IMG/VR virus record: IMGVR_UViG_3300046824_000119
Coordinates: 1-43,034 of that record
DNA: 43,034 nucleotides
Direction: 5' to 3' (one strand)
DNA from: a virus
Part shown: one piece after another, positions 4,631-40,278 of the stretch
Layout of the letters: every line of letters starts with the position of its first letter
Numbering within the stretch: position 1 is the first letter of the stretch
The notes under the pieces: model-generated
Seen by the model: the letters and a program-made list of their open reading frames with translations, nothing else
The model's database searches: none
Told to the model about the DNA's origin: nothing
Program-made: the position numbers and the translations under genes

Positions 4631-5692
4631 CTAACCGTTCGGATCCTCGGCCGGAGCGAGACGGATGGACATCTCGTCCACCACCTGCTGCGCAAGGTCC
4701 GGCGGAAGCGCGGCAACCACCGCGTCCGCGATCGTCTCCGCGGCGCCCTCGGCGCCGGCCAGCCCGGACAGGACACCCTGAACGATGGCAGCCTCATCGG
4801 TGAAGTCCTTGCCGACCAGCGTGGCCAGGTCTGCCTGAACCTGCAACAGCCGGGTGCCGATCTCGCCGATGACCTTGTACTGGTTGGTCGTCTCGCCCGC
4901 CCTGAACGGGTTCGGCACACCCTGGACGCCGGCCCGGTTGCCGATCACTGACTCCGGATAGCCGCTCTTCTGCTCCGTGCTCTTGTGGAACTCCTTCAGC
5001 GCGGCCAGGCAATCGTCGTACGCGGTCACAAGATCCTCCTCCGCCCATCCGGGCGCTAGCAGTTCGGTCAGTTCGGTCAGTGTCCCGCGGAACGCGTTCG
5101 CGTCACAGGTGGTCTGATTGGCGATGGTGGCGCTCGAGCTGTATTGCAGGATCGACGGACTCCTCCCGCCGTACGCTGCCCACTTGCTCGAGGAGTCCCC
5201 GGGGTAGAGCGTCTTGTAGTGGCCTGCGCCGTCCACGTACTTCGACGACCACAACGGGTACTTGAACTTGGAGATGTCGCCATACACCCAGTCCGGCAGG
5301 TAGCCGATCGGTCGCAGCTTCGGCAACTTGGCCACCAGCCGGTCACAGAAGGCATTCACCTCGGACACGCTGGGCACCGTGGACGAGTCGCCGTTCCACT
5401 TCTCGCAGTCGGCTTGCAGGATGAACGGGCCATCCCGCCAGCCCGGGCACTGCGAGTCCAGGCGCGCGATGAACTTGTCCGCGCGGCCGGTCGGATCGCC
5501 TGGGTACAACACCCAGTAGGCGCCCAGCAGGACCGTGGACCGGTAACCCTTGGCGTAGCCCCACCATGAACCGAGTTCCGCATCATCTTTGTCCCCACCG
5601 GCCTTGTGCGTCTGGAAGACGATGCCGTCGGAGAACATGGGACGCGTGTCCGCGCCGTCATAGTGCGAGACGTCCGAACCAAAAACGGTCAT
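4631..5692 (-). CDS. Endolysin, GH25-like lysozyme
   Basis: 353 aa, ATG at 5692 overlapping the previous stop (ATGA). The N-terminal 210 residues look like a glycoside hydrolase family 25 muramidase: FGSDVSHYDG at the start matches the family's D-S-x-(W/Y) opening, and acidic residues follow at expected strand ends (ILQADCEKW, YLPDWVYGD). Such enzymes cut the N-acetylmuramic acid-N-acetylglucosamine bond of peptidoglycan. The C-terminal 120 residues are helical and rich in Ala, Leu and Glu, with no recognised wall-binding repeat, an odd tail for a lysozyme. No signal peptide, so export needs a holin; holin-like genes follow directly. Confidence 0.75.
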   Translation of the reverse strand: MTVFGSDVSHYDGADTRPMFSDGIVFQTHKAGGDKDDAELGSWWGYAKGYRSTVLLGAYWVLYPGDPTGRADKFIARLDSQCPGWRDGPFILQADCEKWNGDSSTVPSVSEVNAFCDRLVAKLPKLRPIGYLPDWVYGDISKFKYPLWSSKYVDGAGHYKTLYPGDSSSKWAAYGGRSPSILQYSSSATIANQTTCDANAFRGTLTELTELLAPGWAEEDLVTAYDDCLAALKEFHKSTEQKSGYPESVIGNRAGVQGVPNPFRAGETTNQYKVIGEIGTRLLQVQADLATLVGKDFTDEAAIVQGVLSGLAGAEGAAETIADAVVAALPPDLAQQVVDEMSIRLAPAEDPNG

Positions 5693-32098: not shown

Positions 32099-33361
32099 TC
32101 AACCAGACTTCAGCCGGGCCAGCTGCACACTCTCCCGCGCCCGCGTGACCGCGGTATACAGAAACCGCCGCGCCTCCTCCATGGCCTTGGCCATCCCGTC
32201 GCGTCGCGCCTGCATCTCGATCATGGCCCGCGTCTCGTCCACCACGTACACGCTGTCCCACTCCGACCCCTGTGCCTTGTGCACCGTGATCGCGTCCGCG
32301 AACGTGAACGCTCCCACCTCGCCGCGCCAGGCGCGCCGGCCCTTCAGGGACTTCTCGCCCTCGAGCCCCTGGAATCCCTCCAGCCAGGCATGGATCCAGC
32401 GCTCCGGCGCGTCGGTGCCGGACTCCTTCAGCAGCAGACGCTCCCCGTTGGTGTCCAGCACGTCAAACTGCTGGCCGTTGAGGATGCCGAGATCCTTCTT
32501 GTTGTTGACCAGGCAGATGACACGATCGCCCGGGACGGGCACGCCGGCAGGCCGGCCATGCTTGGCCCGGATCTTCTTGATCAGCTTCCAGCGGGTGGCA
32601 TTGCGCCAGCACAACACCTGCTCGAACTCCATGGCGCGGGTGATGCCGGCCGTCTCCCACAGGTTACTCTGCCACATCCGTTGATCAAGCGTGCGAATCT
32701 CGGTCGCCAGAGCGAGCACTGGCGACTCCAGCGCCTGCCGGTGGATCTCGGTGAGCAGCACGTCCGGCTCTGCCCGGGTGTAGTAGCCGCCGCCTTCGAT
32801 CGGCGGGAGCTGGAACGGGTCACCCAGTACCAGCACGGGCACCCCGAAGCTCTCGATGTCGCGGGCCATGTCCGTGTTCACCATGGAGACCTCGTCCAGG
32901 ACGATCAGGTCCGCGTACGCCCACTCGCTCTCGGGGTTCAGGACGAAACCGGGCTGACGGAGCTGGGTCTCCAACTCCTCGATCCGGTCCTCGATCCTCG
33001 CAGCTTCTTCGTCAGAGGGAGTGAAGCCGACCTCCATCATTAAATTTGCCATACGAGTGGTCAGCTCTCGATGCTCCGCGCGCACCTGCGCGTTCTCCAT
33101 CGGCCGGTAGATGGCGGAGTGGATGGTGGTGGCCGGCACCCCCTTGCGGGCGAGCACACTGGCCGCCTTGCCGGTGTAGGCGCCGAACACCACGTCCTGA
33201 TCTCGGAGACCGAGTCTGGCAGCGACGTGTTTGGCCAGCGTCGTCTTGCCGACACCTGCCGGCCCGAACAGCCGGAAGGGCTGATCACGGACACGCGCGT
33301 CCAGGAACCAACCCTGGACGGCGTCCAATGCCTTGTCCTGCTCCGAGGTGAGAGTGATCAT
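32099..33361 (-). CDS. RecD/Dda-type SF1B helicase
   Basis: 420 aa from the ATG at 33361, overlapping the previous stop (ATGA). Walker A LFGPAGVGKTTLAKH (about 31-45), motif Ia VFGAYTGKAA, Walker B DLIVLDEVSMVN, motif III VLVLGDPFQLPP, and C-terminal AITVHKAQGSEWDSV and LYTAVTRARESV. This set is diagnostic for 5'-3' helicases of the RecD/Dda group, which open replication forks and load recombination proteins. It lacks the long N-terminal extension of RecD2. Confidence 0.9.
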   Translation of the reverse strand: MITLTSEQDKALDAVQGWFLDARVRDQPFRLFGPAGVGKTTLAKHVAARLGLRDQDVVFGAYTGKAASVLARKGVPATTIHSAIYRPMENAQVRAEHRELTTRMANLMMEVGFTPSDEEAARIEDRIEELETQLRQPGFVLNPESEWAYADLIVLDEVSMVNTDMARDIESFGVPVLVLGDPFQLPPIEGGGYYTRAEPDVLLTEIHRQALESPVLALATEIRTLDQRMWQSNLWETAGITRAMEFEQVLCWRNATRWKLIKKIRAKHGRPAGVPVPGDRVICLVNNKKDLGILNGQQFDVLDTNGERLLLKESGTDAPERWIHAWLEGFQGLEGEKSLKGRRAWRGEVGAFTFADAITVHKAQGSEWDSVYVVDETRAMIEMQARRDGMAKAMEEARRFLYTAVTRARESVQLARLKSG

Positions 33362-37817: not shown

Positions 37818-38009
37818 ATGAGGTACGTACTGGACAGGGACGACGACGGTCACTGGTACCTGATCGCCGAGAGCGAGAAGGGTGCCTTCAATGAGTATGT
37901 CTACGCGGGCGGCGCGGAGCCTCCGTCGATGATCCGGCTGAGCGGGCACCCGAACAATGTCAGCTTCGAGGCTCCGCTGGAGTTCGGTAAGCCGATGATG
38001 GCGAAATGA
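37818..38009 (+). CDS. Small acidic protein (63 aa)
   Basis: ATG at 37818 after GAGAGGTAGAGGG. Starts MRYVLDRDDDGHWYLIAESE, a beta-hairpin pattern, then NEYVYAGGAEPPSMIRL. Overlaps the nuclease start (ATGA). No family recognised; possibly regulates the nuclease it is coupled to. Confidence 0.6.
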   Translation: MRYVLDRDDDGHWYLIAESEKGAFNEYVYAGGAEPPSMIRLSGHPNNVSFEAPLEFGKPMMAK

Positions 38010-38911
38010 ACGATCTCGACCTGGTCGACGATGCCGAGCCCGCCCCGCTGTACGGCCTGGATCAGGCCCTCGGCCGGTACCGCTTTCCGCCACCGCCCGG
38101 CGTGGATCGCCCCCGCGGCGCAACCTGGCGCCGCACCACCAACCTGGTGAAGGCGTTCAGCGACCAGTACAAGCTGCAGCTCTGGCTAGAGCGGATGACC
38201 CTGCTGGGCCTGCTGGCCAACGACGGCCTGCTGTTCGATGAGTTGGCCGCGTCCGGTATCGAGTACCTGCCGTCCGATGTGCAGGCCAAGGCGCTGCGCG
38301 ACTGGGCGGAGAAGGCGCGCAGTGCGGTCGGCGCGGACAAGGGCGCGCGTAAGGGGACGGCGCGGCACAACGTGCTGGAGCACTACATCTTCGCGGATGA
38401 GGTCATCGGCCACCGGCGGATGCAGGTGCAAATGCACGCGCTGATCGACTGCATGGACCGCAAGGATTTCGAGTTCATCCCGGGTACGCAGGAGAATTTC
38501 ATCTTGCACCCGGCCGCGGGCGGCGTGGTGGGCCGGCGCGACGCGCGTTTCCTGTGCCGGCGCACCGGTCAGGTGGGCACCATCGATCTGAAGACCCAGG
38601 AGCGCTTCTGGACTTACCAGGAGCACGCCGGCCAGCAGTGGATCTACGACACCGCGCCGTGGGTGTGGGAAGGGCCGCTGTCGGACGCGGGACGATGGGC
38701 GCCGCAGATGTGCGGCACGTACCTGGGCCGCCCGGGCGGGCCGTGCGAGGGCAAGCCTGCCGCCCTGCTGATTCACATGCCGAGCAAGGGCGGGCCGGTG
38801 GGGCTGCATGAGCTGGACCTGGAGTACGGGGCGCGTGTGGTCGAGGAGGCGGAGCGGATCGTGGCCTTGCGTACCGAGGGCACGCGAGTGGGCGGAATCT
38901 GCCCGGACTGA
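38006..38911 (+). CDS. PD-(D/E)XK nuclease (RecB/Cas4-like)
   Basis: 301 aa. Core motif: GRRDARFLCRRTGQVGTIDLKTQ, read as the Asp of motif II and the D-x-K of motif III (residues about 177-198), followed by a QxxxY-like stretch (YQEHAGQQWIY). ARHNVLEHYI upstream supplies a conserved His/Glu region. This is the layout of RecB-family exonucleases that phages use in recombination, usually beside an SSB or annealing protein, as here. The stop is 5 bases before the -35 box of the ncRNA. Confidence 0.75.
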   Translation: MNDLDLVDDAEPAPLYGLDQALGRYRFPPPPGVDRPRGATWRRTTNLVKAFSDQYKLQLWLERMTLLGLLANDGLLFDELAASGIEYLPSDVQAKALRDWAEKARSAVGADKGARKGTARHNVLEHYIFADEVIGHRRMQVQMHALIDCMDRKDFEFIPGTQENFILHPAAGGVVGRRDARFLCRRTGQVGTIDLKTQERFWTYQEHAGQQWIYDTAPWVWEGPLSDAGRWAPQMCGTYLGRPGGPCEGKPAALLIHMPSKGGPVGLHELDLEYGARVVEEAERIVALRTEGTRVGGICPD

Positions 38912-38915
38912 GGGC

Positions 38916-38945
38916 TTGACGGGCCGAGTATTGCAAGGCTATAGT
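38916..38945 (+). promoter_or_regulatory. Promoter of large structured RNA
   Basis: TTGACG (38916-38921), 18-base spacer, TATAGT (38940-38945). With the six-base spacing seen at the leaderless genes, transcription would start at A38952, the first base of the RNA's closing helix. One of the best sigma70-like promoters in the window. Confidence 0.75.
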
Positions 38946-39071
38946 TGATGTACCGGCGGAGGTCGAGCCTCCCGGGAGAGACAGGGATTCCATCCCGCTC
39001 CTGGGCAAGAGTGAGCGGATCGGTCTTGAGTGAAGATGTGACCGGCACGCGAGTCGCTCCGCCGGTTGCAA

Positions 39072-39143
39072 GCCCCGCAAGGCCGGAACTGTCAAGCGCC
39101 AACGTAGCGCTGTGATTGCCTGGTTCAAATCCAGGGCGGGGCA
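39072..39143 (+). ncRNA. tRNA-like module 1 inside large RNA
   Basis: 72 nt. Acceptor stem GCCCCGC/GCGGGGC (7 bp), T arm CCTGG-TTCAAAT-CCAGG with consensus T loop, and a perfect 5-bp stem AGCGC/GCGCT in the anticodon place. But the anticodon loop is CAACGTA (A, not T, at position 33), the D arm has at most three pairs, and no CCA is coded. Not a normal tRNA. Confidence 0.65.
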
Positions 39144-39498
39144 CGGAATACGGAGTGGACGCCTAACCAGCCGAAGGTCCGGGCAACAGATCGGCTCACC
39201 AGGTGGTGCCTGAGCAAACAGGGCGGTTGGTCCCGTCAATGTGCGAGGGGCATGTGCGGGGATCGTTACCCCGTCCGATCGCGTAGGAAAGCGCATGTGG
39301 GTGTAAGCGGGGAAGCCGGCCGGATGAACCGCAACGGGTGCGCAGGCACGGATACGAGGATGAGACCGTGTGAAAGGCGAGAAGGGCGGCCGCAGATCGT
39401 GGCTGTCACGACTCGCGACGAGGGGCGGCGCGGGCGAGAGCCACAACCGTATTGGACCCGCTGCAAACGCATGACGCGGCATGGGCCGCCCCTCACCT

Positions 39499-39565
39499 TC
39501 CCCGCAGAGGGTTATCCGGCACCTGGTCGGGAGCCGGGTACGTGGTTCGAATCCACGGCGGGGAG
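39499..39565 (+). ncRNA. tRNA-like module 2 inside large RNA
   Basis: 67 nt. Acceptor stem TCCCCGC/GCGGGGA (7 bp) and T arm CGTGG-TTCGAAT-CCACG, both perfect. Between them a 6-bp stem (39521-39526/39534-39539, one G-U) with a 7-nt loop TCGGGAG lacking T33; no D arm of normal shape. Same partial preservation as module 1. Confidence 0.6.
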
Positions 39566-39735
39566 CGTGAGCCGCAGACGAACCCGCAAGGGTTGCGGCT
39601 ACAGACCGGGCGTTCCGTCGGCACTCCGGTCGCGTGTAAGAAGTGGTCGCGGGACGGGATGAGACCACCACGAGGGGCTAGGGATGAGGCCCCTCATCCA
39701 ACAACAAGATCAAGTCCAAGCAGAACAGGAAGAAC

Positions 39736-40278
39736 ATGACCGACAGCACCGAAATCCTGGATCTCGTCGATGACAGCCAGGAGGTCTTCCCGACCAAGGA
39801 CGACATGAAGGACCGTCTCGTTCTGGTGTGGGTGACCGGCAAGACCGGCACGCGCAAGTCGGACGCCACCCAGAAGTCCTACACGTGGGTGGAGACGACC
39901 ACGATGGTGGTCGACGACGGCCCCAACTGGACCGGCACGGTGTTCGACCCCGACGCGCAGACGTCGCGGGAGATCCGCATCCCCTCGGTGGCCGAGAACG
40001 GCCCGACGATCCTGGAGAACTTCCAGTTCTCCTTCGGCGGCATGGTGAGCCGGCTCCAGCAGCGCATCGGCCCGGACGGCAAGCCGAAGACCTTCAAGCC
40101 CTTGTTCGGCCGGATCAACTCGCGCCCGAACAAGACCAAGGGTATGGCCCCCTCCTGGTCGGTGGCCACGCCGACGGCCGAAGAGCACCAGGCGTACGCG
40201 CCGTTCGCCGCGCAGATTCGGGAGATCTCCGCCCGGATGGAGAAGGCGTCCGCGGTGGTCGACGAGTTCGACGAGTAG
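39736..40278 (+). CDS. Single-stranded DNA-binding-like protein
   Basis: 180 aa, ATG with AGGAAG upstream. Strands in the first 110 residues (RLVLVWVTGK, KSYTWVETTTMVV, WTGTVFDP) suggest an OB-like fold, followed by a positively charged segment (FGRINSRPNKTKG) and a C-terminal helix ending in VVDEFDE, an acidic tip like those SSBs use to bind partners. Conserved actinophage proteins of this kind accompany RecB-like nucleases. Assignment is by pattern and context. Confidence 0.6.
   Translation: MTDSTEILDLVDDSQEVFPTKDDMKDRLVLVWVTGKTGTRKSDATQKSYTWVETTTMVVDDGPNWTGTVFDPDAQTSREIRIPSVAENGPTILENFQFSFGGMVSRLQQRIGPDGKPKTFKPLFGRINSRPNKTKGMAPSWSVATPTAEEHQAYAPFAAQIREISARMEKASAVVDEFDE

Follow-up and report, generated by a model that had tools for sequence, protein, structure and literature searches.

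The bacterial Y RNA YrlA is a non-coding RNA with a tRNA-mimicking domain, and tmRNA has tRNA-like ends with the anticodon arm replaced. Species 1 RNA (rnaC) of phage T4, a stable RNA that adjoins the phage tRNAs, contains a perfect T arm, partial acceptor pairing and a large structured insert in place of the anticodon arm. The functions of rnaC and its neighbour rnaD are still described as unknown (PMC9697503). P1/P7 C4 RNA, M3 RNA and the T4 gene 32 mRNA, which encodes an SSB, are phage transcripts processed by RNase P (PMC11143913). The 3′ tRNA-like structures of plant viruses are viral mimics of tRNA that are recognised by RNase P, the RNA of which pairs through its GGU sequence with R73-C74-C75 of the substrate (PMC12710915). 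GOLLD and ROOL are large phage RNAs often located near tRNAs, and the linker of GOLLD sometimes holds tRNAs (PMC12286853).

We analysed by computation a window of 43,034 nt, the viral record IMGVR_UViG_3300046824_000119, which belongs to a tailed phage, since it encodes portal, head maturation protease, major head protein, terminase, tape measure, primase and helicase. An exonuclease gene and a possible SSB gene flank a structured RNA (38952-39703), which contains tRNA-like structures (TLS). As in rnaC, a T arm and acceptor pairing are combined with another structure in place of the anticodon arm in a non-coding RNA, a likeness of build only, with no sequence homology; rnaC is a single RNA inside a true coliphage tRNA operon and not an array of swappable modules. 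The tRNA-like ends with a replaced anticodon arm are common to tmRNA and the array, but the array has several TLS per transcript. YrlA resembles the TLS in its tRNA-mimicking domain, whereas the array has no Rfam match; a Y RNA working with a phage Ro protein was rejected because none of nine phage records contained a TROVE/Ro gene, although a host gene is still conceivable. The array is a large phage RNA like GOLLD and ROOL, but differs from them in matching no model and having no single conserved fold, and the tRNAs in GOLLD linkers are at most a loose parallel to the TLS. The array differs from the phage RNAs cut by RNase P in that one transcript contains several TLS, C74 is conserved in them, and cutting is predicted. 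The plant-virus structures are positioned at the ends of RNA genomes and end in CCA, whereas the TLS of the array are internal in the transcript of a DNA phage and have no CCA.

Position and extent of the array

The promoter, which the preliminary description had called clean, is of the sigma-70 type (TTGACG at 38916-38921, an 18-nt spacer, TATAGT at 38940-38945) and lies directly past the exonuclease stop (38911). It is conserved, since promoters of the same type are located just behind the exonuclease stop in L002-L006, five phage contigs with orthologous exonucleases. The predicted transcription start coincides with the first base of the closing helix of module A (Table 1), as had been pointed out. 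However, the coincidence is not a rule, because L002 and L005 carry module A further in, behind another hairpin. At the other end of the array, read-through of the terminal hairpin is likely, because it has no T run.

The 752-nt RNA folds at -349 kcal/mol with z = -1.9 (20 shuffles, GC content 66%), a value so modest at this GC content that the folding energy alone does not prove structure. The z values of single modules were -3.0 for TLS2, -2.6 for hairpin D, -2.1 for TLS1 and -2.0 for module C. The many strong helices described previously were borne out: the modules fold cleanly, and the proof comes from comparison, since module B contains compensatory changes over seven sequences. The GCAA tetraloop is present as well. 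The previous picture of an ornate RNA of about 750 nt is supported as regards a large structured non-coding phage RNA in the replication region, but the RNA is a chain of independent modules rather than one fold. Open frames are present at 39252-39662 on the plus strand and 38499-39671 on the minus strand. A protein-coding region was nevertheless rejected: in relatives, the matches to these frames only follow the conserved RNA modules, contain indels and are less identical than the DNA. No open frame is conserved among relatives, in agreement with the initial view that none was credible.

The predicted model of the downstream protein had a pLDDT of 77.5, and its best matches in the PDB were SSBs, none of them significant; the assignment of the gene as SSB-like is weakly supported. 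Searches with this protein in viral contigs and phages gave no match, nor did searches with the exonuclease and module B in the genome collection. A DNA search of 50,697 phage records returned only T-arm matches to tRNAs, which led to the phages phiAsp2 and Indlulamithi, and a plasmid search returned no match.

Table 1 Features of the array and its neighbouring genes in the window
Feature	Position	Strand	Description
Exonuclease gene	38006..38911	+	RecB/Cas4-like, phrog_466 (PHROGs E 1.5e-28); upstream neighbour; orthologues in L002-L006
Promoter TTGACG-18-TATAGT	38916..38945	+	Predicted +1 at 38952; exact in the sequence
Module A	38952..39069	+	Closed by ACCGGCGG/CCGCCGGT; shared with L002 and L005
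TLS1	39072..39143	+	Body 39072-39142, A73 at 39143; acceptor GCCCCGC/GCGGGGC; T arm CCTGG-TTCAAAT-CCAGG; central loop CAACGTA
Module B	39151..39283	+	5′ hairpin 39151-39181 plus tRNA-like half; seven phages, compensatory changes, model R2
Module C	39284..39417	+	Hairpins; window only, no match in relatives; fold z -2.0
Hairpin D	39418..39497	+	GAGGGGCGGC...GCCGCCCCTC; 100% identical to L005 3807-3886, the last hairpin there
TLS2	39499..39565	+	Body 39499-39564, G73 at 39565, C74 at 39566; acceptor TCCCCGC/GCGGGGA; T arm CGTGG-TTCGAAT-CCACG
3′ hairpins	39567..39667	+	Include GCAA tetraloop near 39591; from fold; not common to relatives
Terminal hairpin	39672..39695	+	GAGGGGCT/GGCCCCTC, no T run; such a hairpin precedes the next gene in relatives too
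Downstream gene	39736..40278	+	180 residues, acidic C-terminal tail; same position in L003-L006

Two tRNA-like structures in the array

The true connection of the array is to tRNAs, through TLS that the first reading had missed. Two T arms are visible in the sequence (GGTTCAAATCC and GGTTCGAATCC); the 7 nt behind each of them are perfectly complementary to a strand 50-65 nt upstream. When folded alone, TLS1 and TLS2 form an acceptor, a central arm and a T arm. A strict scan, which required a T stem of 5 bp with a TTCRA loop directly next to a 7-bp acceptor, identified these two in the array and nothing else on the two strands of the 43 kb, and 300 shuffles of the array gave none; the scan misses degenerate TLS and gave none in L005, L009 and L012. 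A relaxed scan of eleven loci detected about 20 TLS, compared to one in antisense and 0.00-0.03 per shuffled locus. The relaxed scan at times pairs the wrong 5′ acceptor strand (39056 instead of 39072), and its variant with wider stems yields a chance match at position 32763 of the window.

Both structures contain the 7-bp acceptor and the T arm with a TTCRA loop of a canonical tRNA, but ARAGORN and the Rfam tRNA model call nothing in the window, and no anticodon could be read. The function of the anticodon was probably lost in TLS1, because U33 is missing and both programs are silent, even though the central loop still has 7 nt. The central arm of TLS2 is interrupted and has no 7-nt loop. Neither central arm appears to offer a usable anticodon. 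A tmRNA was rejected because neither ARAGORN nor Rfam called one in the window. An attP site within a tRNA gene was also rejected: none of the nine records, which are possibly fragments, contained a tyrosine or serine integrase, the acceptors are complete, and there are several TLS per genome.

Covariation in module B

The tRNA-like half of module B is formed by a closing helix (39189-39194/39275-39280) and a T-arm-like hairpin (39256-39274), the loop of which is the canonical TTCGACT or TTCAACT in L004, L009 and L012. Covariation in related loci, suggested previously as a check, was found in this module, which could be aligned in seven phages. In a hand-written structure made up of the 5′ hairpin, the closing helix, a D-like stem, the central hairpin and the T-arm-like hairpin, 99.5% of the cells of this small alignment pair, and 11 of the 29 pairs changed on both sides, compared to 4.5 in shuffles and 0-3 in slid controls. 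These counts are partly built in, because the structure was written after the alignment had been seen. An independent RNAalifold run reproduced the closing helix, the central hairpin and the T arm and gave nine two-sided pairs.

The possible pseudoknot proposed near the 3′ end was not confirmed, and a loop-loop contact was found in module B instead, where ACCA at 39166-39169 can pair with TGGT at 39228-39231. The corresponding contact in L005 is GTCA/TGAC, with two compensatory changes in one sequence, so that its covariation is suggestive rather than proven. Model R2, built for module B, recovers all seven known copies at E < 1e-37 and no other convincing match. The alignment of three module A sequences is consistent with its fold but nearly invariant.

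Module turnover in related phages

In the contigs L002-L006, this slot is likewise occupied by a promoter and an array, although the modules differ. Of the array of the window, 15% is shared with L002 and 55% with L005, whereas the exonuclease proteins are 90% and 85% identical, respectively. Hairpin D and its copy in L005 are located at different positions within their arrays. The 80-nt identity points to a recent exchange of the module, because the flanking exonuclease gene of L005 is only 84.5% identical in DNA; an identical hairpin of this length would be expected by chance at about 1e-6. Judged by these comparisons, the region is a modular and hypervariable array, in which modules come and go among close relatives. 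A relative of TLS1 is present in L003 at 5167-5236. Within the array region of L006 (5330-5860) lie a short ORF and another promoter-like site (TTGCAG..TATACT), behind which a further module begins.

A pattern search for module B added three phages (L008, L009 and L012). One scan of viral contigs with an over-strict pattern matched only the contig of L004. The array of L008 is about 1.7 kb long (minus strand, 12573-11120) and contains at least six TLS or cloverleafs. The cloverleafs have a D arm, T arm and acceptor, whereas the anticodon arm is a GAGA tetraloop at 11485-11418, a 4-nt TCAC loop at 11760-11688, and an insert of 53-63 nt in others. The Rfam tRNA model accepts four to five of them with up to 55 bits. 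The cloverleafs of L008 make the origin from tRNAs plain and show the nature of the more diverged TLS of the window. Group I introns in tRNA genes were rejected as the source of the inserts, because such introns are longer than 53-63 nt. L008 also retains real tRNAs (Cys and Ser) near the array. In one element of this array (12306-12206), the loop of an anticodon-like arm can pair with the long variable arm of the element.

Similar elements in other phages

TLS recur between the exonuclease and the next gene in divergent lineages, namely the clade of the window, G007 (the phage of L009) and phiAsp2. The exonuclease of G007 is 28% identical to that of the window, and the gap behind its gene contains a cloverleaf-like element (L029 3213-3292) in which the anticodon loop is replaced by a loop of 14 nt. 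In the cultured Actinoplanes phage phiAsp2, an unannotated TLS is located between the exonuclease gene and pas50 (L013 2450-2526), and G008 has one upstream of the corresponding gene. At this site, the gaps of other cultured relatives (Sour, AnClar, Stinger, NBR1, KYD2, phiHau3, Verse and others) are short and free of TLS; therefore, the arrays are insertions recurring at one operon position.

Outside this slot, the Streptomyces phage phiSAJS1 (NC_029005.2) contains an unannotated perfect cloverleaf between p51 and a MazG gene (L039 4290-4412), with a hairpin of about 67 nt as the anticodon arm. The cultured M. smegmatis phage Indlulamithi (NC_048824.1, ~35.0-44.7 kb) contains fifteen elements, all on the plus strand and none on the minus strand (L041 35034-35748 and L042 38-8668), whereas ten shuffles gave two matches. 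Fourteen of the elements are located in gene gaps, and one overlaps an annotated gene start. One is an annotated tRNA-Gln and a few are longer, but most are unannotated minihelices of 40-45 nt, which are built from an acceptor and a T arm and share R73-C74 and a conserved linker, AACGGTTTTCG. These elements look like tRNA punctuation of phage mRNA. The minihelices fit such a role because the acceptor and T arm are the part of tRNA that RNase P reads. Anticodon-less TLS thus occur in several unrelated phages and are largely unannotated, because tRNA finders and Rfam miss diverged ones.

Processing signals and proposed maturation of the array

The second base past the acceptor, C74, is a C in 19 of 20 TLS (P ~1e-9), and the acceptor begins with G+1 in 18 of them (P ~4e-7); because the TLS share descent, the surprise is at most as large as these P values imply. 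The set comprises the TLS of the arrays, phiAsp2 and phiSAJS1, and the searches that found them made use of neither feature. GG in the D region is also retained, and C74 mostly follows a purine at position 73. C75 is not conserved among the TLS listed, and the contact with RNase P RNA would therefore be only partial. The preservation of the acceptor, T arm and C74 together with the loss of the anticodon suggests selection for tRNA-maturation enzymes, not translation.

Based on these features, a maturation mechanism can be proposed. We favour, with moderate confidence, the interpretation that the array is transcribed as swappable RNA modules punctuated by anticodon-less TLS, which would be cut by the tRNA-maturation enzymes of the host. 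RNase P would cut on the 5′ side of each TLS (39071/39072 and 39498/39499), and RNase Z past position 73 (39143 and 39565). One promoter would give rise to module A, TLS1, an RNA comprising B, C and D, TLS2, and a downstream mRNA starting near 39566. Both the TLS pieces and the hairpins of the payload would persist as stable small RNAs. Our guess is that the payloads act on variable host factors, such as defence or RNA enzymes; a target on the host side is favoured because the modules turn over fast. The TLS pieces could also be functional RNAs themselves and not punctuation.

Tentatively, a broader strategy can be imagined, in which the tRNA body serves phages as a standard chassis. Different payload arms would take the place of the anticodon arm, the units would be linked into a cassette array that recombines, and host tRNA enzymes would mature them into small RNAs directed at host factors; T4 rnaC and the minihelices of Indlulamithi would be other forms of the same strategy.

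Alternative explanations

The TLS and payload arms may act as decoys that occupy host enzymes acting on tRNA, such as defence nucleases, modification enzymes or RNase P, so that the phage escapes. The mimicry of tRNA is clear, one 80-nt module was apparently exchanged recently, and arrays shared at 15-55% next to exonucleases identical at 85-90% turn over faster than the neighbouring genes, as in an arms race. However, enzymes that cut anticodons need an anticodon, which the TLS lack, we know of no defence target, and the position of the Indlulamithi minihelices in gene gaps fits punctuation better. We therefore consider decoys rather unlikely. A lower probability is given to the array being a 5′ leader that controls translation of the SSB-like mRNA in the manner of the T4 gene 32 leader, the mRNA of which is an RNase P substrate (PMC11143913). 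In the clade of the window, the array immediately precedes a gene of one family, and in G007 and G008 another such gene, and read-through of the terminal hairpin is likely. Nevertheless, that gene does not follow the array of L008 or the module B arrays of L009 and L012, cultured relatives express it behind a gap of 35-150 nt, and regulation does not require a hypervariable array of tRNA mimics.

Decaying remains of a phage tRNA gene cluster would account for the origin of the TLS from tRNAs and for the real tRNAs near the array of L008. This explanation is improbable, since the acceptor and T stems stay perfectly paired although their sequences differ, module B is conserved with compensatory changes in seven phages, and C74, G+1 and the promoter are kept. 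The preliminary description placed the RNA in or near the GOLLD/ROOL class, which is reported to assemble into large RNA-only particles. Size, phage origin, ornate structure and the tRNAs of some GOLLD linkers (PMC12286853) agree with this assignment, but we regard it as very improbable: Rfam, searched for GOLLD, ROOL and other families, gave no family at gathering and only two chance matches at E <= 10, and the relatives form a mosaic of modules with no 3′ or other domain common to all. An RNA-primed replication origin, as in the extrachromosomal cluster A prophages, is hardly credible despite the location of the array in the replication region and the occurrence of such RNAs in actinophages (PMC7157519), since the known RNAs adjoin parABS, which was not seen here, unrelated modules replace the array between close relatives, and relatives with the same operon lack it.

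If the TLS indeed punctuate the transcript for cutting by host enzymes, phages would borrow the essential tRNA-maturation machinery of the host to cut their transcripts, much as mitochondria do. The punctuation reading provides a testable frame for the long-open question of T4 rnaC, and Indlulamithi in M. smegmatis offers a cultured model with about a dozen predicted cut sites.

Far from the arrays, G007 carries a tRNA-like element of about 98 nt (57004-56907, L027 minus strand), with an encoded CCA and a long extra arm replacing the normal anticodon arm. In T4, the fold of rnaD (1554-1672) has a z of -0.8, not beyond chance, and that of the neighbouring rnaC (L025 1409-1547) a z of -4.6.
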